Shown: positions 4,361 to 47,748 of the stretch, piece after piece
Layout of the letters: the number at the start of each line of letters is the position of its first letter
Numbering within the stretch: position 1 is the first letter of the stretch
From: Dysgonomonas hofstadii
Lineage (GTDB): Bacteria > Bacteroidota > Bacteroidia > Bacteroidales > Dysgonomonadaceae
DNA length: 64,000 nucleotides
Direction of reading: 5' to 3'
NCBI RefSeq assembly: GCF_014196915.1
Contig: NZ_JACIEP010000002.1
Span: forward strand, 186,001 to 250,000
The notes under the pieces: generated by a model
Seen by the model: only the letters and a program-made list of their open reading frames with translations
Database searches by the model: none
Told to the model about the DNA's origin: nothing
Program-made: the position numbers and the translations under genes

Positions 4361-4396
4361 AAAAATGGCTACCCATGCAATTGGATAACCATTTTT
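4361..4396 (-). terminator. Terminator of the nlpE-like operon
   Basis: An imperfect 15-bp stem (4361-4375 with 4382-4396, wobble pairs only) lies 18 bases past the stop of the minus-strand gene. Read on the minus strand it ends in a T-run. Confidence 0.75.
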
Positions 4397-4414
4397 ATTT
4401 AATATCGCTATTTT

Positions 4415-30631: not shown

Positions 30632-30643
30632 GATCTCAGAGAT

Positions 30644-33631
30644 TTAAAAATTAAGATTTACACCTAACATAATTGTTACAGGACGTGGATAAACATTTCC
30701 GTCATACCCTCCAAACACTTCCGGATCGAGCCCTTTATATTTTGTAAATACGAACGGATTCTGCACCGTGCCATAAATACGGCCATTGAGAGGAAATTGT
30801 TTCGACTGTTTGAACGACCAGCCCAACACGATATTATCTATGCGGAAAAATGATGCATTCTGTACATAATAATCGGATAATGACTGCCCGGTCTGGAAAT
30901 TGGTATCGAAAGCGCTGCTCACACGGTTCGACAAGAACTCATTTGTATAAACAGATGTAGCACTTATACCTGCATTATTCGCTGCCACGGCATTGTAGTT
31001 ATAGTTTCCAAGGCTTCCGTGTCCGGCAATGGATAAATCCCAAGCTTTCCATGTCAGTTTTGTATTCAGCCCGAAGGTCCAGTCGGGAGTCGGATTTTTA
31101 TAAGCACGCAGATCCTGTTCGTTTATTTGTCCGTCATTGTTCTGGTCTTTATAAAATCCTTCGACCGGTTTCCCCTCTTCGTTGTAGATTTGCTCATACA
31201 CATAATACATATTGGCAGCCTGTCCTACCATGTGTACATTCATGCCCACACGGCGCTTTGTATCTTTATCATCGCCCGCACTCAGTTTGGTGATCTTATT
31301 TTTATTGTAGGCGAAGTTTGTACCTACTTCCCACGTAAGGTCTTTTGTTACAACAGGGCTTGCGTTGATCGCGAATTCAAATCCTGTGTTTTCGAGGTTT
31401 CCTATGTTGGAAGCCACATATTCACGGAAATTCGTTCCTGCCGTAGTTTTGGTTTCCGCATTGATCAGGTCTTTTGTCTTGCGATGGTAAATATCTATCG
31501 AACCTTCTATCCTGTTTCTCAGGAATCCATAGTCGATGCCTGCATTATAAGTAGTGGTTGTTTCCCATTTCAGGTCGGGATTGAATGCTTCGGGGCGCAA
31601 CAGAGATACCCAGACTGGCACTCCGTTATTGTATCCACGAAGATAATTAGCCTGATCGCCCACTGTATTCTGGTAAGTCGGCATATACGGATAATCCCCC
31701 TGATTGATATCCTGCTGGCCGGTCATCCCCCACCCGAGACGAAGTTTCATATTGCTGATCGCATCCACATCTTTCAGGAAACTTTCTTCCGACATTCTCC
31801 ACGCCAAAGCCACAGATGGGAATAGCGACCAACGATTGTCTTTATGGAAACGGGACGAACCGTCGTTACGAAGTGTAAATGTCAGCAGATATTTATCCAG
31901 TATGCTATAATTGAGACGTCCGAAGAATGAAATAATATAATGTTCTGTTTCGTAATTGCTTTCACTTACCAATTCCGGATCTCCGTACGCATCATACCGT
32001 GTGATACGATGCCCTATATTACTACCCTCGCGCCAGTAGTGTTGCCACGAATATCCGCCCATCACATCGAAACGGCTGCCAAGGAAATTGAGATCTTTGG
32101 CATACTGTGCATAAAAATCTAAAGTAGAATTGCGTCTTTTCTGATCCCATGACGAATCGTATCCTCCATACATATAATCGGACGGTGAGAATTCGGAGAT
32201 CCATTTTGTACCGTCACTTTTGGAATAATCCATCCCTAGATTGAGATTCAACCGCAGTTCTGGCAGAAAATGTAATTTATAATCGAACTGGGCATTTCCT
32301 ATGAAATTGTATACATCCGATTTATCTTTTGTCATTTCCAGCATCGACACAGGGTTCTTTGTCGCCACCTGAATGATATTATCGTCTTTACCCGTCCATG
32401 TATAGAAACCGCCAAACGGACTATTATCGTCATATACAGGTTGTGATGGATCCATCACTAAAGCTGCTCCGATAGCTCCCTGATCGGCAAATCGATTGTT
32501 TACATACATTCCTCGTCCGTTCAGGCTTATTTTCAGATGATCGTCGAAAAGAGTAGGTGTAAGTGAGAAACTTCCTGTATAGCGTTCCATTTTGGAAGTC
32601 TTCAAAATACCGTTCAAATTGGTATACCCAAACGATACCCGGTATGGAAGCACCTCATTGGCTGTACCATATACACTGATATTATGCTCTGTATTTACAG
32701 TGGTGCGCAATATTTCGTCCTGCCAGTCAGTATTGGCTTTACCCAGTTTTTCCTGCATTTCCCCATAGGTAGATAAGCCAGAATAAGAATTGTCGATAAA
32801 GGCACGAAACTCATCGCCGCTTAATACATCTATTTTCTTCTTAGGTGTGCTTACCGATACGTTTCCGTCGTATGTTATCCTGATCTTGCCTGCTGTTCCA
32901 CGCTTGGTGGTGATAAGGATAACCCCATTGGATGCACGGGAACCATATATAGCGGTGGCCGATGCATCTTTCAGTACGGTAAACGATTCTATATCGGTAG
33001 GATTGATGGTACTCAATATATTTCCAACACCACCTAATCCCTGGTTATCGATAAATACTCCATCGATCACTATCAGTGGATCGTTACTGGCTGTTAGGGA
33101 CGAACCTCCACGAATACGGATTGAAGCACCTCCACTGGGTGATCCTCCTTCGGAGGTGATGGTTACCCCTGCTACTTTTCCCACCAGCATATCCTGCGCA
33201 TTCGGAGCGAATCCTCTTGTCGATGCATCGGCTTTTATACTGGTCAATGCACCTGTAGCATCCCCTTTACGCACTTGTCCGTAACCGATAACCACAACCT
33301 CATCCAACAGTTTGTTATCCTCAACTAATGTGATCAGCAATTCAGGTTGCCCCTGATAGACGATCTCCTGAGTTACATAGCTGATATAAGAAAAAACAAT
33401 AGTTGCTCCATTATTTACATTGAACAAGGAGAATTTCCCGTCAATGTCTGTCATTACACCATTGGTAGTGCCTTTAACCGACACGCTTACCCCGATCACA
33501 GGCTCCCCGGTCTCATCTTTGACTATCCCTTTCACTGCACCCTGCTGCGCAAAAATATGTTGCGAGAAGAATACGAGAAGAATAAATACAAAAAAATGAG
33601 TGATTTTTTTAGTTCTTAATTTCTTTTTCAT
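30644..33631 (-). CDS. susC: SusC-like TonB-dependent starch transporter
   Basis: 995 residues. A signal peptide (1-29) precedes a CarboxypepD_reg-like domain (about 33-110), a TonB box near DEVVVIGYG, a plug domain (about 120-240) and a 22-strand barrel. It imports maltodextrins across the outer membrane with SusD, driven by TonB. It is the first gene of the operon. The 320-base gap to susR upstream holds a -7 element and a palindrome. Confidence 0.95.
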   Translation of the reverse strand: MKKKLRTKKITHFFVFILLVFFSQHIFAQQGAVKGIVKDETGEPVIGVSVSVKGTTNGVMTDIDGKFSLFNVNNGATIVFSYISYVTQEIVYQGQPELLITLVEDNKLLDEVVVIGYGQVRKGDATGALTSIKADASTRGFAPNAQDMLVGKVAGVTITSEGGSPSGGASIRIRGGSSLTASNDPLIVIDGVFIDNQGLGGVGNILSTINPTDIESFTVLKDASATAIYGSRASNGVILITTKRGTAGKIRITYDGNVSVSTPKKKIDVLSGDEFRAFIDNSYSGLSTYGEMQEKLGKANTDWQDEILRTTVNTEHNISVYGTANEVLPYRVSFGYTNLNGILKTSKMERYTGSFSLTPTLFDDHLKISLNGRGMYVNNRFADQGAIGAALVMDPSQPVYDDNSPFGGFYTWTGKDDNIIQVATKNPVSMLEMTKDKSDVYNFIGNAQFDYKLHFLPELRLNLNLGMDYSKSDGTKWISEFSPSDYMYGGYDSSWDQKRRNSTLDFYAQYAKDLNFLGSRFDVMGGYSWQHYWREGSNIGHRITRYDAYGDPELVSESNYETEHYIISFFGRLNYSILDKYLLTFTLRNDGSSRFHKDNRWSLFPSVALAWRMSEESFLKDVDAISNMKLRLGWGMTGQQDINQGDYPYMPTYQNTVGDQANYLRGYNNGVPVWVSLLRPEAFNPDLKWETTTTYNAGIDYGFLRNRIEGSIDIYHRKTKDLINAETKTTAGTNFREYVASNIGNLENTGFEFAINASPVVTKDLTWEVGTNFAYNKNKITKLSAGDDKDTKRRVGMNVHMVGQAANMYYVYEQIYNEEGKPVEGFYKDQNNDGQINEQDLRAYKNPTPDWTFGLNTKLTWKAWDLSIAGHGSLGNYNYNAVAANNAGISATSVYTNEFLSNRVSSAFDTNFQTGQSLSDYYVQNASFFRIDNIVLGWSFKQSKQFPLNGRIYGTVQNPFVFTKYKGLDPEVFGGYDGNVYPRPVTIMLGVNLNF

Positions 33632-33950: not shown

Positions 33951-35624
33951 TTAAAAATTATTCAGACAAATATGTTTTACTTTCTCCTCAAAATCTTCTT
34001 CCGGATTTAAGGCCTTCGATTTTACCTTGCTGCGGTAATTATAAACCGTCCGGGGTGTATAGTGTAAAAATGTCGCTATCTTATTCGTGTCTTTTATACC
34101 CAGTTTTATAAGTGCAAATACACGTAATTCCTGATTGAGGGATTTATCCTGACTTACGGCATATCGTTCTTCTGTCCGTAAAAGGTTATTAAATTCTTCA
34201 ATAAAAGCAGGATATATATTAAGGAATGCTTTATCAAAATTGGTATATAATTCTTTTAGTTCCTGAGCGGAATTCTCTGTCTTGGATGTCAGTTTCAACA
34301 GGTCAGCAGTTTGTCCCGATTTTATTTTCCTGTTGACCGTTATTTTAAAGGCTTCCAGTTTTTCTATATATTCCGTGCAGATATCCAGAAAGTTACTTAT
34401 AAACTGTTCTTTGATATGATTGGCTTCTGCCAGCGAAATATTTGTTTGCTTTTGCTTCTTATTTGCATCCTGCAAAACTACATTCAGCTCGTTCAGACGA
34501 GAATTTATTTCTTCTATATGCTGCTTGGCTTTCGAGAGTTTTCTCATTTGCAGTACAACAAATATAATGGCAACCAATAAAATAACCGATAATATACTTA
34601 CCGCAATAAGCAATACCCGCAGCTTCTGTTGCTGTGCTTCCCTATCCAGTTGATAAGCCTTATCTATGATAGGTAATAATTTAGATGTCTGTATATTACG
34701 TAGACGAGCATTATAAAAATTCGCATCGTCGAGACTTTTCTTTATATAGCGGTTAGCCCGCCAGATATCACCATCCTCGAACAATAATACAGCTAATGTC
34801 CGCAAAGACAGATTCTCTTTTACAGGTACTTTTATATCTGTAATGGCAGAGAGAGCCAGATATTCCATTTCTTTCTCCCTGTCCCCTTTTTGTTGGTAAT
34901 AATATGCCAGAATAGATGTTATAAGCGCGTATTCTTTTGTGTCGGTCTTTACTTTCGGAAAGTATGCGAATAATACCCTTTCGGCATTCTTAAAGTCTTT
35001 TATTTCTATATATCGCGTACCATAGTTGATGGCATGCTCGAAAGAATTGGTTTCCACCACTTGCAGAAGTGAGTCCTGATAAGTCTCTCTTTTTCTGACG
35101 AGTTCTCCTATATCATAATGATCCTGGTATTCGAGCCAATAGATATAAGCATCTGAATATGTGCGGTAATAATCTACGAGTTGATATTTTTTCAGTTCAC
35201 CTCGCCTGATAGTGTTGAGGATTTCGATAGACTTGGTAAACATGCCAGCCCGGGCTTCACTCCTGGCCCATTGTATCTTGCTATCGTTTATCCAGTTCAT
35301 GTTTTCCGTATCTTCTGCTATAGATGCCGCCTTCTTTGAATATATAATGGCCGAATCACAGATGAATGTTTCATACTCTTTGGCAATATTTAAACAAATA
35401 AAGTATTGATCCTCTTTGCGAATATTTTGATTATGGAACTGTTCTTTTAATTTTTCCAAATAGTCTTCCTTTTGTCGGGAGTATTCTTTTTCATTCTCTA
35501 ATACCTTATCCAATTCTACTAACAAAGAATCGAGATTCGATCTGTTGGCAGATACAGATGTCGCCATAAACAGGATAAATATAATAGGAATAAAATATCT
35601 CATCAAAATATGGAGGTTTTTCAA
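33951..35624 (-). CDS. susR: SusR-type membrane transcription regulator (DUF6377)
   Basis: 557 residues. A signal peptide (1-26) is followed by a TPR-like periplasmic sensor (about 30-325), one membrane helix (about 333-357), a coiled coil, and a C-terminal helix-turn-helix (NKIATFLHYTPRTVYNYRSKVK). The build matches B. thetaiotaomicron SusR, which senses maltose/maltodextrin and activates the sus genes. It lies directly upstream of susC in the same orientation, as expected. Confidence 0.85.
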   Translation of the reverse strand: MKNLHILMRYFIPIIFILFMATSVSANRSNLDSLLVELDKVLENEKEYSRQKEDYLEKLKEQFHNQNIRKEDQYFICLNIAKEYETFICDSAIIYSKKAASIAEDTENMNWINDSKIQWARSEARAGMFTKSIEILNTIRRGELKKYQLVDYYRTYSDAYIYWLEYQDHYDIGELVRKRETYQDSLLQVVETNSFEHAINYGTRYIEIKDFKNAERVLFAYFPKVKTDTKEYALITSILAYYYQQKGDREKEMEYLALSAITDIKVPVKENLSLRTLAVLLFEDGDIWRANRYIKKSLDDANFYNARLRNIQTSKLLPIIDKAYQLDREAQQQKLRVLLIAVSILSVILLVAIIFVVLQMRKLSKAKQHIEEINSRLNELNVVLQDANKKQKQTNISLAEANHIKEQFISNFLDICTEYIEKLEAFKITVNRKIKSGQTADLLKLTSKTENSAQELKELYTNFDKAFLNIYPAFIEEFNNLLRTEERYAVSQDKSLNQELRVFALIKLGIKDTNKIATFLHYTPRTVYNYRSKVKSKALNPEEDFEEKVKHICLNNF

Positions 35625-35855: not shown

Positions 35856-35930
35856 GGGCGTTTAGCTCAGCTGGTTCAGAGCATCTGCCTTACAAGCAGA
35901 GGGTCGGCGGTTCGAATCCGTCAACGCCCA
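35856..35930 (+). tRNA. tRNA-Val (anticodon TAC)
   Basis: A 75-base cloverleaf. The acceptor stem GGGCGTT pairs with AACGCCC, the anticodon stem TCTGC pairs with GCAGA around the loop CTTACAA (TAC at 35891-35893), and the T arm has GTTCGAATC. The discriminator is A and CCA is not encoded in full. An integrase lies 300 bases downstream in the same direction, so the 3' end may serve as an attachment site. Confidence 0.95.
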
Positions 35931-35979
35931 CCGAAAGGTGGAAATGTCGAAAGACAAGCAAAGCCAACAAAAGACAAAG

Positions 35980-36228: not shown

Positions 36229-37440
36229 ATGAAAACAACTTTCCGTGTTTTATTTTTAGTTAGAAAAACCAGACTTAATAAAGATGGTTCAGCTACTATT
36301 ATGGCTCGCGTCACAGTAGGTGGAGACTTTGTTGAATTTAACTCAAAGGTTACTGTTGATCCTACTTTATGGAATCCTATCGGGCGAGTAATAGGAAGAA
36401 GCAAAGATGCTAAAGATGCAAATGATATGCTAGACAAGGTCCGTGCAAACTTAAAGATGCACTACGATAATCTATATGACCGTGATGGTTATGTAACTCC
36501 TGAAAAACTACGGGATTCCTATCTTGGTATCGAAATACAACAATACACATTAATTATGTTGTACGACAAGAAAGTGGAACAGAAACGAAATCTTGTCGGA
36601 AAAGTTATCCGTGATACTACCCTATCCAAATATACAGCAACAAAGAAGCGTATAGAAGATTATCTGGAATATCAATATAAGAAGAAAGATATACCAGTCA
36701 GGGATGTAAACTTTCAGTTTGCACTTGACTATGAAACATATCTTCGTTCCAAATGTGATTGCGGACATAATTCTACAGTAAAACATCTGCGATACCTGAA
36801 ACAGATACTATCAGAGGCTTTCAAGAATAGATACATCACAACTGATCCATTTGTAGATTACAGACTCGGATACAAATCTGTCGATAAAGAATATCTCCTG
36901 GAGTCAGAAATAAAGAAGCTCATGAGTCAAAAATTTGGGGCAAAAAGACTGGAAGAAGTGCGTGATGTTTTTCTCTTCCAGTGCTTCACCGGAGTCGCAT
37001 ACATAGATGCTGCTAATCTTACAGAAGATAATATTCAGGAGGATGAATTCGGGCAGAAATGGATTCGTCTCTATCGACAAAAATCATCTATCCAGGCCAA
37101 TATCCCATTGCTGGAAGTACCTGAAATGATTCTTGATAAGTATAAGCATCTGGATGGGAAACTTTTGCCGATTCATACCAATCAAAAGATGAATGAATAT
37201 CTCAAGGAAATAGCAAATCTGTGTGGAATAAAAAAACGGCTCAGCACGCATATGGCAAGACATTCTTTCGCCACGATAATGCTTACCAAAGGTGTATCGA
37301 TAGAAAGTGTATCCAAAATGCTCGGTCATACGAACATTACAACTACTCAAATTTATGCTAAGATATTGAATCAAAAAATTAGAACTGAGGTGAATAAAGT
37401 TAGAGATGAATTTGATGATATGAAAGAGTTTTATCAATAA
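36229..37440 (+). CDS. Site-specific tyrosine recombinase (island integrase)
   Basis: 403 residues: a small N-terminal arm domain (about 5-95), a SAM-like core-binding domain (about 105-205) and a catalytic domain (about 215-400). Catalytic residues seen are His341 and Arg344 in HMARHSF, His367 in LGHTN and nucleophile Tyr376 in QIYAKI. The first arginine usual in this family is replaced in TGVAYID, as in the CTnDOT integrase group. It should insert or excise the element beside tRNA-Val. Its last 120 bases recur in decayed form at 47620-47748. Confidence 0.93.
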   Translation: MKTTFRVLFLVRKTRLNKDGSATIMARVTVGGDFVEFNSKVTVDPTLWNPIGRVIGRSKDAKDANDMLDKVRANLKMHYDNLYDRDGYVTPEKLRDSYLGIEIQQYTLIMLYDKKVEQKRNLVGKVIRDTTLSKYTATKKRIEDYLEYQYKKKDIPVRDVNFQFALDYETYLRSKCDCGHNSTVKHLRYLKQILSEAFKNRYITTDPFVDYRLGYKSVDKEYLLESEIKKLMSQKFGAKRLEEVRDVFLFQCFTGVAYIDAANLTEDNIQEDEFGQKWIRLYRQKSSIQANIPLLEVPEMILDKYKHLDGKLLPIHTNQKMNEYLKEIANLCGIKKRLSTHMARHSFATIMLTKGVSIESVSKMLGHTNITTTQIYAKILNQKIRTEVNKVRDEFDDMKEFYQ

Positions 37441-37613: not shown

Positions 37614-37742
37614 AACTTGGAGATAGAAAGATATACAGATTCAAAGTTAGGGTATAAAAAGCTTAAAACAACTCAAATCTATGCTCGCATTTTGGATGAG
37701 AAGAAACAAGAGGTGACAAATAAGATACCTGATATAGAATAA
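37614..37742 (+). pseudogene. 3' remnant of a second tyrosine recombinase
   Basis: 42 codons to a stop, containing SKLGYKKLKTTQIYARI and a charged tail. This is the last catalytic box of a Bacteroidetes integrase with His changed to Tyr and one residue missing. The sequence differs clearly from the intact integrase just upstream, so it records an older element at the same tRNA. Confidence 0.75.
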
Positions 37743-37790: not shown

Positions 37791-39470
37791 ATGTTTAATT
37801 TTAGAATGCATTTATGTTATTTTGTATCTGCGTGTATAATTCTAAATATTGTTTCATGCAAAAAAAATAATTCAATTGGAATGCTACAATTGACTAAAGT
37901 TGAGCAGATTGTAGAGTTGAACCCAGATAGTGCATTATTAATATTAGATTCAATAACTATTCCCCATGATTTAAGCAAAGAAGAATACAACAAATTTTTA
38001 TTGTTACTTATTCAAGCTAAGGATAAAAGCTACAAAGATATATCTTCCGACACTCTGCTTTTTCAAGTAAAAGATTATTATCTCAAGAATAAAGATATAG
38101 ACAACGCTGCATTAGCCTCATTTTATTGTGGACGGATTCTACAGGAACAAAAAAAGAACAACGAAGCTGTGGCATATTATTTGGATGCAGAAAAGTATGC
38201 AACACAAATAAATAACCAGAATTTAATTGGTTTAAGCAATAGCTCTATCGGTGGGCTATTGTCTATCCAATTTACACAGGATGAAGCTATTTTAAAGTTT
38301 AAAGATGCAATTCAAGCCTTTAGGAAGGCAAGCAATCAGAAAAATGAGATTATTAGCTATATAAATATAGGGAATTGTTTTCTTATTAAATCGATAAACG
38401 ATAGCGCATTATATTACTATGGCGAAGCTTTAAAATATACAGACCTCTATCAACTCAAAAAAGAACAAATGAGTGTGAGGAATAACTTAAGTATTGCTTT
38501 TCAGGAAATAGGAAATTATGATAAATCATTGTATTATTTAAGAGAAGCTCTCACTTTTACATCTGATGATCTTGAAAGAACAAAGATATATTTAAATTTA
38601 GCAAAGACTTTTAAAGACAAGGATTCCATTTCGTATTATATTCAAAAGTCATTAGACTTTCAACAAGAAGAAAAAGATCCTTATTTGTCATCCAGCGCTT
38701 ACAATGTATTATCAAGTCTGGAAGAAAAAAACATGAATTATAAGAAAGCTTTGGAATACCACAAAGCTTATACTAGTTATTTGGCGACTATACTGAATCA
38801 GAACGAAGACAATAGGGTGTCTGAAATCCAGAAAAAATATAATTTTGAATTGATCCAAAATAGATATAATAAATTAACTCTACAAAGGCTAAAGATCATT
38901 GTTGTGCTTTCGATATGCCTTTTCGTGCTAGCTCTTGTTGCTCTGTTTTATTACCGAAAATCTTACAAAAATAAGAAAGCCATGCTAATCGCAGAAAACG
39001 CTGCGATAGAATCCGAAAACAGGGCTCTTTGGCTAATCGATATGTCTAAATCATTTAATGATAAAGAAGCGTCTTTCAGAAATATACTCTTACATCATTT
39101 TGATATCTTAAAAAAGGCCGCTTTATTGGAAAGCCACTTGAAAAAAGGGGATGAGAATCAATATTTCATAAAAAAGATAAATGATATTGTTTATGGACAG
39201 GAAGCTTTAGACTGGAATGTCCTTTATCGAACAATAAATAATCTTCATAATGGTTTTTTTGATAAACTGCGTGAAAAGTATCCACAATTGGATGAAACAG
39301 AATTTAGAATTTGCTGCCTAATTTATACGCAGTTTAGTAGTTCCGAGATAGCAGTTATTACTCAGCTAAGCATAAATACCGTCCACATGAAAAGAACATC
39401 AATTCGTAAAAAAATAGGAATTGAGCATTCCGGAAACATATCGGACTATCTTCGTAGTAATATTATTTAA
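37791..39470 (+). CDS. TPR sensor with membrane helix and C-terminal HTH
   Basis: 559 residues. A signal or lipoprotein-like N-terminus (VSCKK near residue 22) precedes TPR repeats (about 50-350), a membrane helix near 367-385, a coiled coil and a C-terminal helix-turn-helix with LuxR-like form (SSSEIAVITQLSINTVHMKR). The build resembles SusR-type one-protein regulators. It opens the cargo of the island and is a good candidate to sense a peptide or envelope signal and control the maturase cluster. That role is inferred from position. Confidence 0.75.
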   Translation: MFNFRMHLCYFVSACIILNIVSCKKNNSIGMLQLTKVEQIVELNPDSALLILDSITIPHDLSKEEYNKFLLLLIQAKDKSYKDISSDTLLFQVKDYYLKNKDIDNAALASFYCGRILQEQKKNNEAVAYYLDAEKYATQINNQNLIGLSNSSIGGLLSIQFTQDEAILKFKDAIQAFRKASNQKNEIISYINIGNCFLIKSINDSALYYYGEALKYTDLYQLKKEQMSVRNNLSIAFQEIGNYDKSLYYLREALTFTSDDLERTKIYLNLAKTFKDKDSISYYIQKSLDFQQEEKDPYLSSSAYNVLSSLEEKNMNYKKALEYHKAYTSYLATILNQNEDNRVSEIQKKYNFELIQNRYNKLTLQRLKIIVVLSICLFVLALVALFYYRKSYKNKKAMLIAENAAIESENRALWLIDMSKSFNDKEASFRNILLHHFDILKKAALLESHLKKGDENQYFIKKINDIVYGQEALDWNVLYRTINNLHNGFFDKLREKYPQLDETEFRICCLIYTQFSSSEIAVITQLSINTVHMKRTSIRKKIGIEHSGNISDYLRSNII

Positions 39471-39677: not shown

Positions 39678-40067
39678 ATGAAACAAATAATATTGCTTGC
39701 TAGTTTAATTGCTTGCATAGGTTTATCTGCCAATCTAAAAAGCCTGCACATCCAAGAAACTGATACTGAAAAAGAAATTGACCTAATCGGATCATTGATA
39801 TCTCCCCAAACAAGAATGCTGATTAAGCCTATAATCTTGTTTCAGCAAATGGACTGCCTACGTGTAAACTGTAGCAGTTCGTTGGGATATATAAGTGTTC
39901 TTATCTATAACAATACTGGTGATCTAAAATATCAAAAATGCATAAATACGTCTGTAGAAAGTCTCTTATATATTAGTACTCTCGGGCTAGAAGCTGGAAA
40001 CTACACTGTAAAATTTGTCGATTCTAAAGATCAAAGTTTAATCGGGAATTTTATAGTTCAAGAATAA
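39678..40067 (+). CDS. Small secreted DUF3244-like protein
   Basis: 129 residues with a signal peptide (about 1-18). The rest is a single small beta domain with the DUF3244 pattern: a short EIDLIGSL start, a segment with ISVLIYNNTGDLKYQ and a closing GNYTVKFVDSKDQSLIGNF. The mature part has two Cys. Such proteins are frequent and uncharacterised in Bacteroidetes. It lies between the regulator and the LytTR gene of the island; a role in immunity or sensing is possible but unproven. Confidence 0.6.
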   Translation: MKQIILLASLIACIGLSANLKSLHIQETDTEKEIDLIGSLISPQTRMLIKPIILFQQMDCLRVNCSSSLGYISVLIYNNTGDLKYQKCINTSVESLLYISTLGLEAGNYTVKFVDSKDQSLIGNFIVQE

Positions 40068-40151: not shown

Positions 40152-40433
40152 ATGGAAAAAGAGATTGTTATTGAAATTACTTCATGTATGTACATCATAG
40201 GAGGGAAAAATGAATGTTTTGCTTTTCCCAATGATAGTGTAGTAAAGATATGTAAGATTTCAATAGATGATATTTCTATACTAATATGTAATGGAACAGA
40301 CTTTGTTCGCATAAATATACATGTAATCATAAATACAAAATATTTCATAAAATTAAATGAGAGAAGGAAAATAGTGATGAAAGACGGAACAATATTTAAA
40401 GTATCACGCCGTAATATTTCATTATTTAAATAA
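40152..40433 (+). CDS. Stand-alone LytTR-like DNA-binding protein
   Basis: 93 residues with no receiver domain. The C-terminal half, FVRINIHVIINTKYF followed by KIVMKDGTIFKVSRRN, matches the LytTR DNA-binding domain (FxRxHxSyiVNxxyI, then lkDGtxixvSRr), and the N-terminal half fits its first beta strands. The conserved HRS is changed to NIH. It lies 80 bases before the precursor peptide gene, with a palindrome between them, so it is a likely local regulator of that gene. Confidence 0.6.
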   Translation: MEKEIVIEITSCMYIIGGKNECFAFPNDSVVKICKISIDDISILICNGTDFVRINIHVIINTKYFIKLNERRKIVMKDGTIFKVSRRNISLFK

Positions 40434-40440
40434 TAGAAGT

Positions 40441-40452
40441 ATATGTACATAT
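40441..40452. promoter_or_regulatory. Perfect palindrome ATATGTACATAT upstream of the precursor
   Basis: A 12-bp palindrome 62 bases before the precursor ATG; a second palindrome, AAGTA-A-TACTT, lies at 40489-40499. Both are candidate operator sites for the adjacent LytTR-like protein. Confidence 0.35.
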
Positions 40453-40513
40453 GAATGACGGTGATGAGTATCCACCATTAGCTACTCGAAGTAATACTTA
40501 AATTATATATCTT

Positions 40514-40672
40514 ATGAAATTTGAATTATTAGTTGCCCCTGAAGATGTTTTGACAACTGAAATGGATAATATCCGTGGTGGAAAGAGCGACAAGGATCAA
40601 ATTGTCGTTTGTAGTGGTGACGGTATCGTTAAGAGCCAGGTTGCAGCAGATGATACGTTGAGCGTATTCTGA
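40514..40672 (+). CDS. RiPP precursor peptide with double-glycine leader
   Basis: A 52-residue peptide. The leader, residues 1-23, ends EMDNIRGG, the double-glycine cleavage site cut by C39-peptidase ABC exporters and the hallmark of the Bacteroidales 'GG' natural-product precursors. The 29-residue core starts KSDKDQIVVCSGDG and has one Cys (residue 33), four Asp and no aromatic residue except the terminal Phe. The radical SAM/SPASM maturase follows 92 bases later and the C39 exporter lies in the same operon. The peptide is probably modified, cleaved after Gly-Gly and exported. The modification and activity are unknown. Confidence 0.82.
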   Translation: MKFELLVAPEDVLTTEMDNIRGGKSDKDQIVVCSGDGIVKSQVAADDTLSVF

Positions 40673-40693
40673 TTCTGAACTTATTAGGTTAGG

Positions 40694-40735
40694 ACGAGGG
40701 TGTTATTGCTAATAGCTATAGTGAGCCATCCTCGT
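40694..40735 (+). terminator. Attenuator hairpin between precursor and maturase
   Basis: A 9-bp stem with one wobble (ACGAGGGTG with CATCCTCGT) and a 24-base loop, without a strong T-run. Leaky hairpins after a precursor gene commonly keep precursor mRNA in excess over enzyme mRNA. Confidence 0.5.
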
Positions 40736-40764
40736 TCATTTATATACAGCAAATATGATTTTTT

Positions 40765-42081
40765 ATGGAATGGTCTAAATTCAATATATTATGTAAATCG
40801 CCGGAAGGCAGAAACTATTTGTATAATTCCCGTATGAATCTTTTGCTAAAATTACCGGAAGATACATATGCTTCACTTTGGAAAAACCAACAAAATTTTT
40901 CATTGGATAAATTAAAAGGAGATTTAGATGAAGAAAGTTTGGATTTCTTTATCAAAAACAAAGTTATTGTGGATTCAGGCGAAGATGATAATTTTCTATT
41001 GCAAAAGAAACTATTAAGGTATAAAAGAAGTCTGGATGAGAAAAATGTTGGATTTGTAATAGTCCCGACATATGGTTGTAATTTTAAATGTCCATATTGT
41101 TATGAGTCGAATCTACCAATGGATATAATGTCAGAAAGAGTGGAAGACCAATTAGTTAGATTTATTAAATCATTTGGAATAAACGAGTTCCCAATTTCAT
41201 GGCATGGAGGGGAACCCCTTTTAGCTTTCCGTCGAATAAAAAGTATTCTATATAAATTAAGAGACGAAAACATTAAACTTTCAGATCATAAATTAGTAAC
41301 TAATGGCTTTTTACTTGATGATGAAAAATGTGCTTTTTTTAATGATTTCAATCTGCAATCCATCCAAATAACAATTGATGGATTGGAAGGCACTCATAAT
41401 ATGAGTCGAATTCATAAATCAGAGATACCAACATATGATATTATAATACAAAATATAGAAAGAGTATTCAGATTGATGCCTAACTGTCGTGTAATAGTGA
41501 GGGTAAATGTTCACAAAGGAAACGAAGAAGAGTTTCCTGTGCTACACAAGCAATTAAGAAAAAGGTGGGAGGGACAAAACTTTGAGATTTCGATGAAATA
41601 TGTTAACGACCACAACAATGGATGCAAGATTGCTTGTTTAAAAGATCAAGATAAAATTCGATATATTGAGAAATTAGTAAAGAAAGATAATTTTTCATCA
41701 CTTTCATTGTATCCAAAACCAAAACTTAGCGGCTGTACTGCAACTTTCCTCAATTCTTATGTAATCGGAACAGGGGGAGAGTTATATAAGTGCTGGGTAG
41801 ATGTCGGAAAATTGGAACGGGCAATAGGAAACATCTTTGATAACAATAGAAATATCTCTCTAATATCAGAGTATATTTTGGGGACTGATATGTTCTCGGA
41901 TAAAAAATGTCTATCATGTTCTTTTTCCCCAATATGCGACGGGGGATGTAATCTCCGTAGGTTAAATTTCAAGCAAAATAATATCAAATATGATGTATGT
42001 CCTATTAGAGAAGAAGATTTTGGTACAATATTAGATCTATATTATAACCAAAAGTTCCCAGCACAAAGTATATCTCAATAG
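40765..42081 (+). CDS. Radical SAM/SPASM peptide maturase
   Basis: 438 residues. The radical SAM motif CNFKCPYCYE gives cluster cysteines 105, 109 and 112. The C-terminal SPASM domain has the textbook spacing: Cys324, GxxxxCys343, then Cys382-x2-Cys385-x5-Cys391-x3-Cys395 and Cys412, enough for two auxiliary 4Fe-4S clusters. The first 90 residues look like a small peptide-recognition region. Such enzymes install thioether, carbon-carbon or epimerised residues on peptides. The precursor lies just upstream; with one core Cys, at most a single thioether is possible. Confidence 0.88.
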   Translation: MEWSKFNILCKSPEGRNYLYNSRMNLLLKLPEDTYASLWKNQQNFSLDKLKGDLDEESLDFFIKNKVIVDSGEDDNFLLQKKLLRYKRSLDEKNVGFVIVPTYGCNFKCPYCYESNLPMDIMSERVEDQLVRFIKSFGINEFPISWHGGEPLLAFRRIKSILYKLRDENIKLSDHKLVTNGFLLDDEKCAFFNDFNLQSIQITIDGLEGTHNMSRIHKSEIPTYDIIIQNIERVFRLMPNCRVIVRVNVHKGNEEEFPVLHKQLRKRWEGQNFEISMKYVNDHNNGCKIACLKDQDKIRYIEKLVKKDNFSSLSLYPKPKLSGCTATFLNSYVIGTGGELYKCWVDVGKLERAIGNIFDNNRNISLISEYILGTDMFSDKKCLSCSFSPICDGGCNLRRLNFKQNNIKYDVCPIREEDFGTILDLYYNQKFPAQSISQ

Positions 42082-42157
42082 TCTATTGTAACATTGTCAT
42101 CTTTTCTTTCGTCCTTTTTAATATAGAATCTATTTAGAACACATTAATATTACCAAA

Positions 42158-44530
42158 ATGAAACTCTTTTCCTATTATATTGTATTTCTTTCTTTATTAT
42201 TGAGTCCAATTCAGTTATCTTTTAGCCAGACAATGCTTAAAGGTAGAGTTGTAGATAATAAAAATGAAAGTGTCGATTATTATCTGGTAAAGATATTATC
42301 TGATCCGGATTCTACAGTCATACTTACGGGTTCATTCATTACAGAAAATTTTGAACTTGAAATTGCAGGAAAAGGAAAGTATATCTTGGATGTTTCATCG
42401 ATGGGATATAGCAAACAACTATATCCTTTTTCTGTCACAGAAAAAGATAGTATTGTAAACTTACCGGTTATTTCATTAAACAATTCTTCTTACAACCTGA
42501 ATGAAGTTGTAGTAACAGGAAGAATGCCATTGGTTACATACAACAACAATAAGTCAATAGTAAATATAGAAAATAGCGTATTGAGCGATGCCGGTTCTAT
42601 TACTGATATGTTGAGCAGGACACCGGGACTTATTTCAGATGTCGGAGGACAAATATCTGTTATGGGGAAAGGTAGTCCTATTATTTATATTGACAATAAG
42701 GAAGTTGTCAACAAAGACGAATTAAACACGCTCCAATCAAATGATATAAGTAAAGTTGAAATTATGAGGAATCCTTCATCCAGATATAATGCTTCCGGCC
42801 GACCGGTCATTATTATAAGGACAAAGAGATCAAGAAAAGATAATACGATGATTCAACTCTATAATAATTTGACTATCGCAAGAAAAGTGAGTGACAGGGG
42901 CGGTTTACAGATAACTCAGAATACAGGCAGATATTCAGGTCTTTACAGTTACTCATATGGCGTATATAATCAGAAGCAATATGCTGATTATTTCCAAACA
43001 ATATATAATAAGGATTATACAATGGATAATATTTCAAATGCCATTCAATCTTATTCCAACAAAAATCACAATCTTTTTGCCGGTATAGACTATCAAATCC
43101 GTAATAATGATTATTTAGGACTAAAATTTGCGGGAAGTTTCACTGATGATACCAGAGATGAATATAGAAACCAAAAGATTACTAAAAGTAATATATCCGA
43201 GAACATAATAAGAGATCTTAATTCTGTCAAAAATAAAAACGACGATTATTATACTATTGACTTCAACTATACAATGAACAGAGATTCTGTTAATACACTG
43301 AATCTTAATGCAAGTTATGCACATAAGAAATATTCGGAAAAAACGAATATGGACGAGATTGATATAATTAGTACAGACTATGCGCGGTCTTTAATTAATT
43401 CACAAAACAAATATGATGTATATTATCTGTCGGCAGATTATCAATTTGAAGTTATGGGGATAACTTCACAACTTGGAGGTAAATATTCAAAAATAAAAAA
43501 CAATGGATATAGTGAAAACCACAATCTGAATACGACTAAATTAAACTCTTATGACAGTAATATTACTAACGAAGAAGTTTCAGCAGCCTATCTTAATTTT
43601 AGTAAGAATATTAGAGGATTAACAATTGAAGCGGGTATCCGCTATGAATATACAGACTCAAAAATTAAAACTTCAGAGAGCTTGGAGCATAACAGGCTGA
43701 CCTCGAGTAAATTTTTCCCAAATCTAGGGCTAAACTATGTTATTTCTCCTAAAGCTGAATTAAATATCAATTATAATAAATCCATCAGCAGGCAGCTTTT
43801 TTCACAAATCAATCCGAATGTGATTTATCTTGATTCGTTATCCTATATTATAGGAAATCCGTATTTAAAACCTTCATATTCCGATAATTTCGAAATTGGT
43901 TTAATTCTCTGGAAGAAACTGAACTTCACAGCGAGTGTTGAAACAGAAAAAAATCCTATCATATTTGTCGGCATTAACGATGATAATAATACTGATATTA
44001 CACGATTTACTTATATGAATCTGAATAAAGCAAAATTTTATAATACAGGATTATCATATTCAATAACAAAAGGCAATTATACTTTAGCATTAAACTCTAA
44101 TCTAATGTTTCCTGATATGACAATAAATTATATGAATAGAGAGAAGAAGATAAGAAAGATGATGTCCTCTTTTACATTCAACAATAGTTACAATATTCCA
44201 AATATCGATATTACTGTTTTTCTTAACTTTAATTATAGGGGACCGGGTGATTATGAGATCAGACGGTTTACAGAGCAACATAGCCTAATCGCAGGTGTTC
44301 GCAAAAATTTCTTAAAAGACAGGCTGAAAGCAACTATAACTATGTATGATATTTTACATAAGAATAGTGGAGGTAATTACGATACAGAATATGGAAATAT
44401 TTCAGAGGGCATGAGAATAAATCAGGACACAAGATTCTTGAGAATCAGTTTGAGTTATACCTTTAATAATATAAAAACAAGAGTTAAGAGCAATTCTGCC
44501 AACCAGAAAGAATTAAATAGGCTTTACTGA
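42158..44530 (+). CDS. TonB-dependent receptor-like outer membrane barrel
   Basis: 790 residues. A signal peptide (about 1-24), a carboxypeptidase-regulatory-like domain (25-105), a plug-like domain (about 118-220, with SIVNIENSVLSD and SRTPGLISDVGG) and a long beta barrel. It belongs to the 'outer membrane beta-barrel' group, not the SusC group, and has no SusD partner. It stands between maturase and exporter with an 8-base gap to the exporter. It may carry the mature peptide over the outer membrane, take it back up, or act as immunity or receptor. Confidence 0.8.
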   Translation: MKLFSYYIVFLSLLLSPIQLSFSQTMLKGRVVDNKNESVDYYLVKILSDPDSTVILTGSFITENFELEIAGKGKYILDVSSMGYSKQLYPFSVTEKDSIVNLPVISLNNSSYNLNEVVVTGRMPLVTYNNNKSIVNIENSVLSDAGSITDMLSRTPGLISDVGGQISVMGKGSPIIYIDNKEVVNKDELNTLQSNDISKVEIMRNPSSRYNASGRPVIIIRTKRSRKDNTMIQLYNNLTIARKVSDRGGLQITQNTGRYSGLYSYSYGVYNQKQYADYFQTIYNKDYTMDNISNAIQSYSNKNHNLFAGIDYQIRNNDYLGLKFAGSFTDDTRDEYRNQKITKSNISENIIRDLNSVKNKNDDYYTIDFNYTMNRDSVNTLNLNASYAHKKYSEKTNMDEIDIISTDYARSLINSQNKYDVYYLSADYQFEVMGITSQLGGKYSKIKNNGYSENHNLNTTKLNSYDSNITNEEVSAAYLNFSKNIRGLTIEAGIRYEYTDSKIKTSESLEHNRLTSSKFFPNLGLNYVISPKAELNINYNKSISRQLFSQINPNVIYLDSLSYIIGNPYLKPSYSDNFEIGLILWKKLNFTASVETEKNPIIFVGINDDNNTDITRFTYMNLNKAKFYNTGLSYSITKGNYTLALNSNLMFPDMTINYMNREKKIRKMMSSFTFNNSYNIPNIDITVFLNFNYRGPGDYEIRRFTEQHSLIAGVRKNFLKDRLKATITMYDILHKNSGGNYDTEYGNISEGMRINQDTRFLRISLSYTFNNIKTRVKSNSANQKELNRLY

Positions 44531-44538
44531 ATCAGTAT

Positions 44539-46749
44539 ATGAGGAAATTTCCATTTATACAACAACATGATTCGATGGACTGTGGCCCGGCTTGTCTTAA
44601 AATGATTTCTTCATTTTATAGTCAAGAGTATTCTATAGAAATTCTTAGGGATTTATGTTGTATAGCCAAAGATGGTGTTTCATTAAAAGGGATTAGTCTG
44701 GCTGCCGAAATAATTGGCTTTAAAACTATAGGTGGGCGTCTTACTATCGACAAACTCATGGAAAAAGCCCTGTTACCTTCCATTCTTCATTGGAATCAGG
44801 AACACTTTGTGGTCTTATACAGGATTAAGAAAAAGAAAAAAGACATCATTTTTTATATTGCCGATCCCGGCAAAGGACTTTTACAATACAATAAAAAAGA
44901 TTTTTTAGAACATTGGATCAGTACCAAAACAAATGGAGAAGAAAAAGGTGTAGTCTTACTCTTAGAGCCGACGGAACAGTTTTATAAGCAAGAAGTGGAA
45001 AAGCCTGTTAAAGCAAGCGGAAAACTGAAATTCCTTTCCTCCTACTTCAAACGTTATAAGAAATTCTTCGGACAACTCATTATCGGGCTTCTGGTTGGTA
45101 GCATATTGCAACTTATATTCCCATTTCTTACCCAAGCCGTCGTCGATATTGGCATCGGTAACAAGGACATCAGTTTTATTTGGCTTATTCTTTTGGCTCA
45201 ACTAATGTTAATTATTGGGCGGACAAGCATTGACTTTATTCGCCGCAGGATTTTACTTCATATCAGTACTCGCATCAATATTTCCTTGATATCCGATTTT
45301 TTTATCAAGTTGATGAAACTTCCGATGAAGTTTTTTGATACAAAATTATTGGGGGATTTGTTACAGCGCATAGAAGACCATAGCCGGATAGAACGCTTTT
45401 TGACAGCCCAATCCTTAAACCTTTTATTCTCATTATTTAGTTTTATTGTTTTCGGTATTGTACTTTTTATTTATAACCTGAAAATTTTCTTAGTATTCCT
45501 TTTCGGCAGTATCCTATACGGAGTGTGGATACTATTCTTTCTGAAAAAAAGAAAAATACTGGATTATAAGACTTTTGAACAACAAGCCATCAACCGTAGT
45601 AAAACCTACCAGTTAATTAATGGTATGCAGGAAATAAAATTACAGGGATGCGAACAACGCAAGCGTTGGGAATGGGAAGACACACAAGCCGACTTGTTCG
45701 ACGTGAATACACAGTCTCTGTCCTTACAACAGACACAGGAAGCAGGGAGTGTTTGTATCAATGAAGTGAAAAACCTATTGATTACCATATTGGCTGCTAC
45801 TGCTGTTATACAGGGTGAATTGACGCTGGGTATGATGCTTTCGGTTCAGTATATTATCGGACAGCTTAATTCTCCGGTGGAGCAAATCATGAACTTTATT
45901 TACCAATGGCAGGATGTAAGTATCAGCCTCGAAAGGATGAGTGAAATCCACAATAAAGACGATGAAGAAAACAAAGACAAGAATATAAAAAGCCTACAGC
46001 CTGATATCTCAAAAGATATAGAGATAAAAGAGCTTGTTTTCCAATACGAAGGGCCATATTCGAAGAAAGTCTTGAATGACATCAACCTAACGATCCCGGA
46101 AGGGAAAGTTACTGCTATTGTCGGGGCTAGCGGAAGTGGTAAAACCACATTGATAAAGCTTCTGCTGGGCAATTATTCTCCTGTTGAAGGTACAGTAGAT
46201 GTTGGGAATGAACCATTAAGTCAATTCAACTTAACATGGTGGCGTACACAATGCGGAGCTGTGATGCAGGATGGTTATATTTTTTCTGAATCAATTGCTA
46301 GAAACATTGCTGTTTCAGAAGATGAAATAGACATTAAAAGATTAAGGGATGCCGCTCAGATAGCAAACATAGATGATTTTGTATCCGGCCTGCCATTAGG
46401 CTATAATACGGTTGTTGGACAAGAAGGACAAGGTATCAGCCAAGGACAAAGGCAGCGTATTTTAATAGCAAGAGCCGTGTATAAGAATCCTCAGTTTATA
46501 TTTTTGGATGAAGCTACCAATGCGCTGGATGCTAATAACGAAAAAGTTATACTTGATAACCTGAATGAGTTTTACAAAGGAAAAACAGTAGTGGTTGTAG
46601 CCCACCGACTAAGTACGGTAAAGAATGCAGATCAGATTGTCGTTCTGGATAATGGTGAAATTGTGGAAAGGGGAACTCATGAAGAACTGACTAATTTGAG
46701 AGGAAAGTATTATCATTTGGTAAAGAACCAGTTGGAACTGGGGAATTAA
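44539..46749 (+). CDS. C39-peptidase ABC exporter (PCAT)
   Basis: 736 residues. The N-terminal C39 peptidase has Gln9, catalytic Cys15 in MDCGPAC, His89 in NQEHFVV and Asp109 in IADPG. Six membrane helices follow (about 170-460), then an ATPase domain with GASGSGKTT, the signature SQGQRQRI and FIFLDEATNALD. It should cut the precursor after Gly-Gly and pump the core across the inner membrane. The gap to the HlyD-like gene is 3 bases. Confidence 0.94.
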   Translation: MRKFPFIQQHDSMDCGPACLKMISSFYSQEYSIEILRDLCCIAKDGVSLKGISLAAEIIGFKTIGGRLTIDKLMEKALLPSILHWNQEHFVVLYRIKKKKKDIIFYIADPGKGLLQYNKKDFLEHWISTKTNGEEKGVVLLLEPTEQFYKQEVEKPVKASGKLKFLSSYFKRYKKFFGQLIIGLLVGSILQLIFPFLTQAVVDIGIGNKDISFIWLILLAQLMLIIGRTSIDFIRRRILLHISTRINISLISDFFIKLMKLPMKFFDTKLLGDLLQRIEDHSRIERFLTAQSLNLLFSLFSFIVFGIVLFIYNLKIFLVFLFGSILYGVWILFFLKKRKILDYKTFEQQAINRSKTYQLINGMQEIKLQGCEQRKRWEWEDTQADLFDVNTQSLSLQQTQEAGSVCINEVKNLLITILAATAVIQGELTLGMMLSVQYIIGQLNSPVEQIMNFIYQWQDVSISLERMSEIHNKDDEENKDKNIKSLQPDISKDIEIKELVFQYEGPYSKKVLNDINLTIPEGKVTAIVGASGSGKTTLIKLLLGNYSPVEGTVDVGNEPLSQFNLTWWRTQCGAVMQDGYIFSESIARNIAVSEDEIDIKRLRDAAQIANIDDFVSGLPLGYNTVVGQEGQGISQGQRQRILIARAVYKNPQFIFLDEATNALDANNEKVILDNLNEFYKGKTVVVVAHRLSTVKNADQIVVLDNGEIVERGTHEELTNLRGKYYHLVKNQLELGN

Positions 46750-46752
46750 ATT

Positions 46753-47487
46753 ATGACGGAGAATAGTAAAGGCATAGACAAAGCGAAAAACAGAAACAAG
46801 GATATCGAATTGCGCAGTGAGAAAGTTCGTAATATCATTGGAAAGATACCTCCTCGTATATTAAGAGTTGGTATTTCTGTTGTATCCTTAACAATAATTG
46901 GTGTATTAATACTTGCTTATCTAATTCCATATCCTCAATATAGTATAATATCTGTTCAATTTTATAGTAACCCTTTAGTTCAAACTGTTGAGGCTTTAAA
47001 TTCAGGTATTTTTTATTCTGATATTGAACGATTAACCATATATAAAGACGAAGAAGTTGGATTAATTAAAAATATAAATGACTCTGTTTTTAAATTATAT
47101 TCAAAAGTATCAGGGGAGATATTTTTGAATTCGAAGAATGGGGATTATATAGAGAAGAACAAAATATTATTTACAATTATACCAGATACTATACAGTCTG
47201 CTTATGCTATAGGATTTGTTATGCCTGAAGAGATAAAAGATATAACTGTAGGACAATTTGTCTATATATCATTAAGTGAAAAATCTATTTCCGGGAAAAT
47301 TGTGGAAATTTATCCAATTCAAGAAATGAATACTAACAGTGGAAGTAAGGGATTTAAGATAAAAATAGGTTTCTCCACAGATATAGTATATCAAGATAAG
47401 AACCTTTTATTTCCAAACACAACATACACAGGTAAGATATTGACTTCAAAAAAGCCCATATTACAAAAGATATTCAATCCCAAATGA
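46753..47487 (+). CDS. Short HlyD-like periplasmic adaptor
   Basis: 244 residues. A cytosolic head, one membrane helix (about 36-58) and a periplasmic lipoyl/beta-barrel-like part with SGEIFLNSKNGDYIEKNKILF. Typical HlyD proteins are about 400 residues with a long alpha-helical hairpin reaching TolC; here the hairpin is essentially absent. No TolC-like gene is in the island. It is the partner of the C39 exporter by position. Confidence 0.78.
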   Translation: MTENSKGIDKAKNRNKDIELRSEKVRNIIGKIPPRILRVGISVVSLTIIGVLILAYLIPYPQYSIISVQFYSNPLVQTVEALNSGIFYSDIERLTIYKDEEVGLIKNINDSVFKLYSKVSGEIFLNSKNGDYIEKNKILFTIIPDTIQSAYAIGFVMPEEIKDITVGQFVYISLSEKSISGKIVEIYPIQEMNTNSGSKGFKIKIGFSTDIVYQDKNLLFPNTTYTGKILTSKKPILQKIFNPK

Positions 47488-47526
47488 CTTCTTTTCTGCC
47501 TTTCATACAAAACATATTTGTCATAT

Positions 47527-47748
47527 GTGGAATAAAAAATGGCTCAGCACGCATTTTGAGGACATACATTTGCTACCCTTATACTCGCAAATTAAGTATC
47601 GATAGAGAATATTGCTAAAATGCTCGGCCATACGAACATTACTACTACTCAAATTTATGCTAAGATATTGAATCAAAAAATTAGAGCCGAGGTAAATAAA
47701 GTTAGAAATGAATTTGATGATATGAAAGAGTTTTATGTACAGGAGTAA
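47527..47748 (+). pseudogene. Decayed duplicate of the island integrase 3' end
   Basis: From about 47620 to 47737 the sequence matches 37318-37434 with about six differences in 117 bases and encodes the same KMLGHTNITTTQIYAKILNQ block. The part before that is shifted and scrambled (it aligns with 37222-37317 only with gaps). The tail ends VQE instead of Q. It marks the far end of the peptide cluster. Confidence 0.85.

Follow-up and report, generated by a model that had tools for sequence, protein, structure and literature searches.

What do six neighbouring genes in the genome of Dysgonomonas hofstadii make, and how would their product leave the cell? The genes lie in a stretch of 64,000 nucleotides (the window; positions 186,001 to 250,000 of contig NZ_JACIEP010000002.1, assembly GCF_014196915.1), for which a preliminary description had proposed a complete radical S-adenosylmethionine (SAM) pathway to a ribosomally synthesised and post-translationally modified peptide (RiPP), carried on a mobile island. 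Open reading frame coordinates and Pfam matches agree that all six genes are intact and lie on the + strand in the positions and order first reported, with intergenic gaps of 80, 92, 76, 8 and 3 nt:

40152-40433, + strand: LytTR-like single-domain DNA-binding protein without a receiver, 93 residues (LytTR 18.0 bits, cutoff 22.6)
40514-40672, + strand: precursor peptide, 52 residues, leader 1-23 ending in Gly-Gly, core 24-52 (40583-40669), C-terminal LSVF (reading frame and relatives)
40692-40737, + strand: predicted hairpin between precursor and maturase genes, 11-bp outer stem (folding)
40765-42081, + strand: radical SAM/SPASM peptide maturase, 438 residues (Radical_SAM 58.9 bits, above the Pfam gathering score)
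42158-44530, + strand: outer membrane protein (OMP) of TonB-dependent-transporter type, 790 residues, with N-terminal beta domain, plug and large barrel (OMP_b-brl_3 200 bits)
44539-46749, + strand: C39 peptidase-ABC exporter, 736 residues (Peptidase_C39 105.5 bits and ABC_tran 108.6 bits, both above the gathering score; ABC_membrane)
46753-47487, + strand: short HlyD-like adaptor, 244 residues (HlyD_3 26.2 bits, above the gathering score)

We are confident that this locus is an exported radical SAM RiPP system: an encoded leader-core precursor adjoins its modifying enzyme, the two being conserved together, and the exporter is a single chain with C39, transmembrane and ATPase domains, as in a peptidase-containing ATP-binding cassette transporter (PCAT). 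The proposal as a whole, an operon of this kind carried by a tRNA-Val-associated island and working through the order of steps set out below, we consider likely.

Precursor peptide and hairpin

The window precursor has a leader ending in I-R-G-G (residues 20–23), contains no Cys ahead of the core, and carries a single core Cys, Cys33, within C-S-G-D-G. When the 331-nt gap was shuffled 3,000 times with dinucleotides preserved, a reading frame with a comparable double-glycine (GG) leader arose 6 times; these shuffles, together with recurrence beside related maturases, ruled out a chance reading frame. Across the loci compared (designated by L numbers), we found 14 GG-leader precursors at ten maturase genes (that of the window and nine relatives, 40–52% identity) in nine loci, L013_713 being excluded from the count as the tail of a maturase frame. 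The precursors share a leader pattern, exemplified by PEDVLTTEMDNIRGG, PSDILTIELNDIMGG and PIDILTKELKNIRGG. The worry raised in the preliminary description, that the frame might lack conserved counterparts beside related maturases, was therefore not borne out.

The cores share a cysteine motif. Gly stands at +3 or +4 of 24 of the 27 core Cys in this near set, compared with a shuffle mean of 4.8, and none of 20,000 shuffles reached 24; with one precursor taken per maturase gene, 17 of 19 Cys fit (0/20,000 shuffles), the test taking no account of kinship among the precursors. No enrichment of Gly was seen at +1/+2 or +5/+6 in the 14 precursors. The residue exactly at +3 is Gly for 20 of the 27 and Asp in four C-x2-D-G motifs. 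Every precursor has at least one fitting Cys, three of the 27 core Cys lack the motif, and all motif Cys lie in cores, with none in leaders. This motif sets the near set apart: in a contrast group of 20 precursors of more distant maturases Gly occupies +3/+4 of only 9 of 92 core Cys; L018, a member of that group, has the motif at one of six Cys despite the same leader type. The cores also tend to end alike, with hydrophobic-[SAV]-[AVI]-[FW] at the C-terminus of 10 of the 14 (lacking in one precursor of L010 and three of L092).

A hairpin was predicted in each of the 12 precursor–maturase gaps folded, window included, with a different sequence each time (the gaps at L020, L021, L108, L112 and L113 are among those outside the 12). 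In the 11 relatives it gave z values of -3.4 to -9.1, unequalled in any set of 200 shuffles. In the window the hairpin stretch gave z -4.18 (0/300 shuffles) and the whole gap z -1.97 (8/200 shuffles as good); a longer stretch around the hairpin was weak (z -0.79), and the four other gaps of the operon ranged from -1.1 to +1.3. Such hairpins are usually read as a partial terminator or a stability element that keeps the precursor in excess, and this predicted, recurrent element would similarly yield more precursor than maturase.

Several relatives have further peptide genes. L013 (6227–9807, a Marinifilaceae metagenome-assembled genome) has two tandem maturase genes, each with its own precursors, two near-identical and then one different; L105 (7194–7775) has three different tandem precursors ahead of one maturase, with two C-x2-G motifs each. 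Three Marinifilaceae loci (L013 5575–5706, L019 9403–9564, L020 9368–9526) encode, upstream of their maturase region, a small conserved GG-type peptide that lacks Cys and ends in IVIIDG[KE]EVRIYV, which looks like a second, different peptide.

Maturase and predicted ring chemistry

The catalytic motifs of the maturase are intact, as first described: the CX3CX2C cysteines (C105/C109/C112) and seven SPASM cysteines (C324, C343, C382, C385, C391, C395 and C412) are invariant in 19 of 19 aligned maturases. The window enzyme passed the general SPASM domain model TIGR04085 (51.3 bits, cutoff 27), the only model above its cutoff among the 25 best of the 63 that matched. Its best named maturase model was Clo7bot (188.6 bits, cutoff 600); PapB (107.3, cutoff 340) and SCIFF (79.8, cutoff 425) also scored below, and strict membership in Clo7bot, PapB, SCIFF or TIGR04149 was rejected on such scores. 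At E 1e-10, the Clo7bot, TIGR04463, CefB, geopeptide, PapB and SCIFF models matched all 19 aligned maturases, and the cyclophane models AmcB and YhhB matched 18 and 19 of them at lower scores. The nearest solved sequence was CteB (5wgg, E 1e-17), and CteB was also the first fold match (5why, TM-score 0.66) of the predicted maturase structure (pLDDT 82.8); both entries are named as CteB following PMC10352776 (papers are cited by PMC accession). These peptide-maturase matches bear out the preliminary placement among peptide-acting enzymes, even with the window under the cutoffs. A sulfatase maturase was rejected, with 80.8 bits against a cutoff of 349, well under the best peptide-maturase models, and no sulfatase among the ten proteins scanned.

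In the chemistry we favour, the leader would hold the 52-residue precursor on the maturase, which would join the sulfur of Cys33 to Asp36, three residues on, at either its Calpha or its Cbeta, closing a four-residue ring. That the product contains a Cys thioether is quite likely; for this particular ring, predicted from sequence, we put the chances at about even. Streptosactin, a characterised sactipeptide, has Calpha thioethers Cys31–Gly34 and Cys25–Ser28, which are C-x2-acceptor rings (PMC8172795, which also prints Cys15 once), and the same Cys-x2-acceptor spacing is found in the near set, where 24 of the 27 core Cys have Gly or Asp at +3. PapB accepts Cys-Xn-Asp with n of 0–6 (PMC9413430). 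Taken together, the streptosactin spacing and the Cys–Asp joining by PapB lead to the prediction of Cys33–Asp36, with the carbon left open. The 29-residue product would have a monoisotopic mass of 3021.50 Da with the ring and 3023.51 Da if linear.

In the maturase tree the window, L104, L011 and L012 form one clade (support 99/98), and all four have a C-x2-D-G precursor with a C-terminal Phe. The association of C-x2-D-G with this clade gave a Fisher p of 0.005 over 10 genes, in a test made post hoc, after the pattern had been noticed. We read this co-segregation of motif and clade as a sign that enzyme and substrate may have changed together.

The same clade bears on a ranthipeptide chemistry, in which Cys33 would be joined to the Cbeta of Asp36, as by PapB, and not to its Calpha. 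This is a possible reading, if not the one we would choose: C-x2-D occurs at four of four maturase genes of the clade, PapB tolerates such Cys–Asp spacings, the PapB and SCIFF (CteB-type) models match throughout the alignment, and CteB is the nearest solved structure. Across the near set, however, Asp stands at +2/+3 of only 9 of the 27 core Cys, as opposed to Gly at +3/+4 of 24; Gly has no Cbeta, and the window maturase lies far below the PapB cutoff. Another radical modification altogether, such as epimerisation or a C–C link using the C-terminal aromatic residue, with Cys33 left free, in a disulfide or as a metal site, is improbable. The recurring C-terminal motif, the cyclophane-model matches and the three ill-fitting core Cys would suit it; the motif is nevertheless missing from four precursors while a fitting Cys is present in all 14, and the top-scoring models and the CteB fold favour Cys chemistry.

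Several observations weigh against the Cys33–Asp36 thioether and the framework around it. The window core has Asp at +3 and Gly at both +2 and +4 of its Cys, so the acceptor could be Asp36 or Gly37. Scoring far below every listed NCBIfam cutoff, the maturase does not reveal its chemistry through its family, and the chemistry may differ across that family, since distant maturases of the same operon type have motif-free cores. The C-x2-3-G motif was picked by eye from the same, related precursors, so the shuffle test overstates independence. The ten maturases with C-x2-(D)-G do not form one clean clade, two changes being needed on the tree to account for L018, which lies within the group on a branch of uncertain placement. 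The window precursor matched no precursor model in an NCBIfam scan, so the search against RiPP families that the preliminary description had looked to came back empty for the peptide itself; TIGR04149 (cutoff 25 bits) gave no window match and matched three of eight relatives at 19.9, 13.5 and 8.7 bits. Finally, the RiPP product is a prediction from genes. Even so, the comparison makes the proposal specific, naming the residue at which the four-residue thioether ring would sit and the mass it would give, and because near-related maturases have precursors that differ in the ring residue (Asp or Gly), the choice between Calpha and Cbeta is experimentally addressable.

Export, regulation and the probable island

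The preliminary names of the three proteins behind the maturase (TonB-type OMP, C39 exporter and short HlyD adaptor) agree with the Pfam, fold and adaptor-alignment results. The exporter matches the ABC-type bacteriocin transporter 4ry2 over residues 2–729. By analogy with its families, its C39 domain would cut after Gly22–Gly23 and its ABC part would move the 29-residue peptide out of the cytoplasm; the peptide would then pass or meet the TonB-type OMP and act outside the cell. The OMP scored above cutoff for OMP_b-brl_3 and TonB_dep_Rec_b-barrel and just under it for Plug (21.6 bits, cutoff 23.9), and its profile matched the plug region of Cir (E 4e-6), giving the plug and large barrel of a TonB-dependent transporter. 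A search of PDB sequences with the OMP alone gave no match. Its predicted structure (pLDDT 83.6, pTM 0.66) had only TonB-dependent transporters or SusC-type proteins among the 50 best-listed fold matches, from which, at an rmsd of about 24 Å, the fold class alone was used.

The adaptor has an LRSEKVR motif at residues 20–26, a transmembrane helix at 40–58 and a small periplasmic part; PDB searches with it gave nothing useful. In nine of nine aligned adaptors LRSEK.R is invariant ahead of the transmembrane helix and the protein is short, with most of the sandwich region missing in five (L106, L107, L016, L017 and L112) and, judged by length and sequence, no room for a coiled-coil hairpin in any. 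A normal TolC-docking adaptor was accordingly rejected. We found no TolC-like outer membrane factor in the operon, the rest of the genome not having been searched for one. With a short adaptor and a TonB-type OMP, the operon as encoded does not supply the classical C39–HlyD–TolC bridge.

We asked how far this gene order recurs in 23 Bacteroidales loci with long flanks, a set that omits L025, L031, L038, all non-Bacteroidales loci and 11 short-flank loci; adding the last gave 34. The profiles used were built partly from the same loci, and entries for one place were counted once (L004/L015/L111, L005/L108, L006/L109, L089/L104, L091/L110, L092/L105, L093/L106, L094/L107, L095/L113 and L096/L112). 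An OMP-profile match follows the maturase in 22 of the 23, L021 having a 697-residue TonB-like reading frame instead, and in 26 of the 34, with L090, L097, L098 and L103 contributing from the short-flank loci. The order is not universal, which counts against the favoured reading: in L007 and L102 the exporter follows the maturase directly, and in L099 about 0.5 kb on, with no OMP match between. L008, L009, L100 and L101 have neither OMP nor exporter within about 1.5 kb after the maturase. The maturases of the eight loci without an OMP match are all at most 33% identical to that of the window. The maturase frame of L099 (G456:C177:321-1598) is broken by one TGA. Among the 23 loci, an exporter was found in 17 (the sequence continues without one in L010, L019 and L020, and the contig or locus ends in L012, L014 and L104) and an adaptor-like gene in 13, some by weak scores.

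In 10 chosen loci the OMP changes fastest of three proteins, with a mean pairwise identity of 23% compared with 37% for the maturase and 56% for the exporter. Mirror-distance correlations were alike for all three pairs (maturase–OMP r 0.54, maturase–exporter r 0.56, OMP–exporter r 0.48), and so do not single out the OMP.

Could the TonB-type OMP itself be the exit duct, with the exporter handing the peptide to its barrel? The lack of a TolC-like gene in the operon and the hairpin-less adaptors, five of which lack the greater part of the periplasmic sandwich, would fit such a route, as would the OMP gene's position between maturase and exporter, 8 nt before the latter, its recurrence after the maturase in most loci, and the export role predicted for TonB-related proteins in Bacteroidetes graspetide loci (PMC8939145). 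We nevertheless consider it unlikely: the fold matches listed are uptake receptors, L007, L099 and L102 place the exporter after the maturase with no OMP match between, and the search for TolC-like genes covered the operon, not the genome. Whichever way an exported RiPP crosses the outer membrane, the frequent pairing of a TonB-type barrel with a short adaptor makes that crossing testable by simple deletions.

The operon is larger than the preliminary description had it, as two more genes lie ahead of the LytTR gene, with counterparts in front of some related operons:

37791-39470, + strand: regulator with tetratricopeptide repeats (TPR), a transmembrane segment and a LuxR-type helix-turn-helix (HTH), 559 residues, Cys23 in a lipobox-like position (TPR_12 37.9 bits)
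39678-40067, + strand: DUF3244 protein, 129 residues, N-terminal hydrophobic signal-like stretch (DUF3244 36.4 bits, cutoff 25)

The TPR protein scored below cutoff for GerE, the LuxR HTH model (17.0 bits, cutoff 23.5), and for the BT3442 family NF053779 (142.6 bits over nearly its full length, cutoff 940). Its lipobox-position Cys is invariant in eight aligned proteins, and one transmembrane helix lies between residues 353 and 396 in nine of nine checked (369–387 in the window). In the PDB the leading matches to its profile were designed and eukaryotic TPRs; Rap receptors came next (Rap3T, E 4e-11), and the VraR HTH was matched too. It has a match near the maturase in 8 of the 23 loci (window, L011, L012, L017, L104, L106, L108 and L109), that of L012 lying on the opposite strand with no Pfam HTH and that of L017, which has a winged HTH, some 5 kb upstream; a SpoIIE-type TPR protein in L105 was left out of the count, and L097 has a partial match upstream. 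Single-domain LytTR genes stand at the same place in 4 of the 23 (window, L105, L106 and L108, from which the profile was built), above cutoff in L106 (30.9 bits) and L105 (35.6 bits); those of the window and L108 are 65% identical, although the maturases share 34%. DUF3244 genes also lie upstream of the maturase in L106, L012 and L108, and in L104 (about 3660–3890, upstream of the G116 precursor) a DUF3244-like stretch appears to be split between frames and may be decayed. From their domains and position, the membrane-spanning TPR/LuxR-type protein and the single-domain LytTR protein would control transcription of the operon. A search near the operon for Bacteroidales-type promoters gave nothing claimable. 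Elsewhere in the same genome, neighbouring TPR/LuxR-type and DUF3244 genes occur at L126 (8473–10857) and L128 (9175–11388); these 19-kb stretches contain no maturase or exporter match, so the pair appears to be a module of its own.

As to what the peptide does, antagonism has roughly an even chance, signalling is a weaker candidate and any other role is unlikely. In a signal circuit, the peptide would be retaken through the TonB-type protein and sensed by a lipid-anchored periplasmic TPR domain, switching the operon on. The upstream regulator with its one transmembrane helix and lipobox-like Cys would suit this, as would its profile's matches to Rap pheromone receptors and a LuxR-type HTH, the uptake-receptor fold of the OMP, and the scan of the operon genes, which revealed no immunity gene. 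The circuit is nonetheless doubtful, because designed and eukaryotic TPRs outscore Raps as matches to the TPR profile, TPR/DUF3244 pairs are also found by themselves, a TPR match accompanies only the eight loci listed above (some contigs being cut short) and not always with a recognised HTH, the OMP match behind the maturase is absent from 8 of the 34 loci, and a different protein, DUF6377, stands by the SusC/SusD pair of the window. The full closed loop, with a thioether-stapled peptide exported by the C39 protein, returned through its own TonB-type receptor and read by the lipid-anchored TPR–LuxR protein, is improbable. If true, the loop would parallel the RRNPP pheromone receptors of the cytoplasm, but across the membrane of a Gram-negative cell and with a tRNA-Val island as its means of spread; in the open-licence PMC literature searched, no closed peptide-signalling loop of this kind is described.

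The operon, read as an exported RiPP system, is probably carried by a mobile DNA island, whose marks are the following:

35856-35932, + strand: tRNA-Val (tac), found by ARAGORN; last 16 nt (35917-35932) the probable island attachment core
36229-37440, + strand: tyrosine recombinase (integrase) of a tRNA-Val-associated family (Phage_integrase, Phage_int_SAM_5 and Arm-DNA-bind_5 above cutoff)
47526-47736, + strand: decayed 3' end of a second, related integrase on the far side of the cargo (aligns to integrase 37222-37434)

The island first proposed was supported by the tRNA-Val integrase family, the 16-nt core at two sister copies, low GC and the integrase remnant, while its right edge was not found. 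Among eight close integrase relatives fetched from a longer list, five lie beside tRNA-Val(tac), and the two nearest copies, L144 and L143 (the latter from the same genome), both start with the final 16 nt of tRNA-Val. The operon block has a GC content of about 31–37%, as opposed to about 35–46% elsewhere in the window, and the remnant is 85% identical to the integrase over 176 nt. The window holds no second copy of the 16-nt core and no right boundary was found there; a genome search with a 22-base tRNA-end pattern, allowing up to 2 mismatches, gave a single site. Of 25 genus genomes, only its own gave a match at E 1e-80 to the M28 peptidase of the right flank, which left no empty site for comparison. 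The L143 copy (G000:C2:344000-363000, 3065–4591) lies about 125 kb away with 92% protein identity; it starts with the 16-nt tRNA-Val end, no tRNA gene being found in that stretch, and its alignment with the window ends at the integrase stop codon, so that different cargo follows a common head. Directly after the intact integrase, a short frame resembling an integrase C-terminus (37617–37742, TTQIYARILDEKKQEVTNKI) suggests repeated insertions. On the other side of tRNA-Val, the DUF6377 gene (33951–35624) lies beside the SusC/SusD pair (29057–33631).

The maturase is patchily distributed and, at E 1e-50, was seen in Bacteroidales alone: matches occur, own genome included, in 6 of 101 family genomes, in 14 of 393 genomes of an order-wide draw and in 2 of 395 of a class-wide draw, the other one belonging to the same order. 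The host genome has one close maturase only, its two other matches being partial (33% and 30% identity), and seven exporter matches at E 1e-40, among which the window exporter alone covers the C39 part.

Comparison with known systems

The preliminary description had called the peptide undescribed. This holds for the subfamily, as we found no description of it, its ring motif, hairpin or short adaptor in the open-licence PMC literature; it does not hold for the general architecture, which is in print (PMC10352776, PMC4573289), so the kind is known and the subfamily new. A survey of 1,136 Bacteroidales genomes reported radical SAM clusters with GG precursors and PCATs (PMC10352776). GG precursors are the rule in that set, as in the window, and BGC2 of Phocaeicola vulgatus similarly has a radical SAM protein as sole modifying enzyme, a PCAT, a membrane fusion protein, an OMP and a TPR gene. 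Compared by description only, the accessible part of that paper does not describe the core motif, LytTR/DUF3244 genes, hairpin or mobile setting.

TIGR04149 precursors occur with paired radical SAM genes, and radical SAM/HlyD/C39 clusters are also reported (PMC4573289). The GG-Bacteroidales cassettes TIGR04149, TIGR04148 and TIGR04150 resemble the window in placing a GG peptide beside a SPASM maturase, one case also having an exporter and a hemolysin-secretion-type protein. They differ in that neither the window precursor nor the best of its eight relatives reaches the TIGR04149 cutoff, and no second, pseudo-radical SAM gene is present among the window genes scanned.

Streptosactin (GggA/GggB, a type 2 sactipeptide) offers a matching ring spacing, with small rings from Cys to the residue three on, Gly or Ser (PMC8172795). 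It comes from another phylum, Asp would serve as acceptor in the window clade, and the likeness drawn here is one of ring spacing. CteB is nearest by solved sequence and fold, and the PapB and SCIFF models match all aligned maturases; the window enzyme nevertheless lies far under their cutoffs, and its precursor has one Cys-X2-Asp where that of PapB has six Cys-X3-Asp. Export resembles the class II microcin type (C39-ABC, HlyD, TolC) in its GG leader, C39-ABC exporter and HlyD-like protein, and departs from it in that the adaptor has no room for the hairpin and the operon encodes a TonB-type barrel where TolC would be expected.

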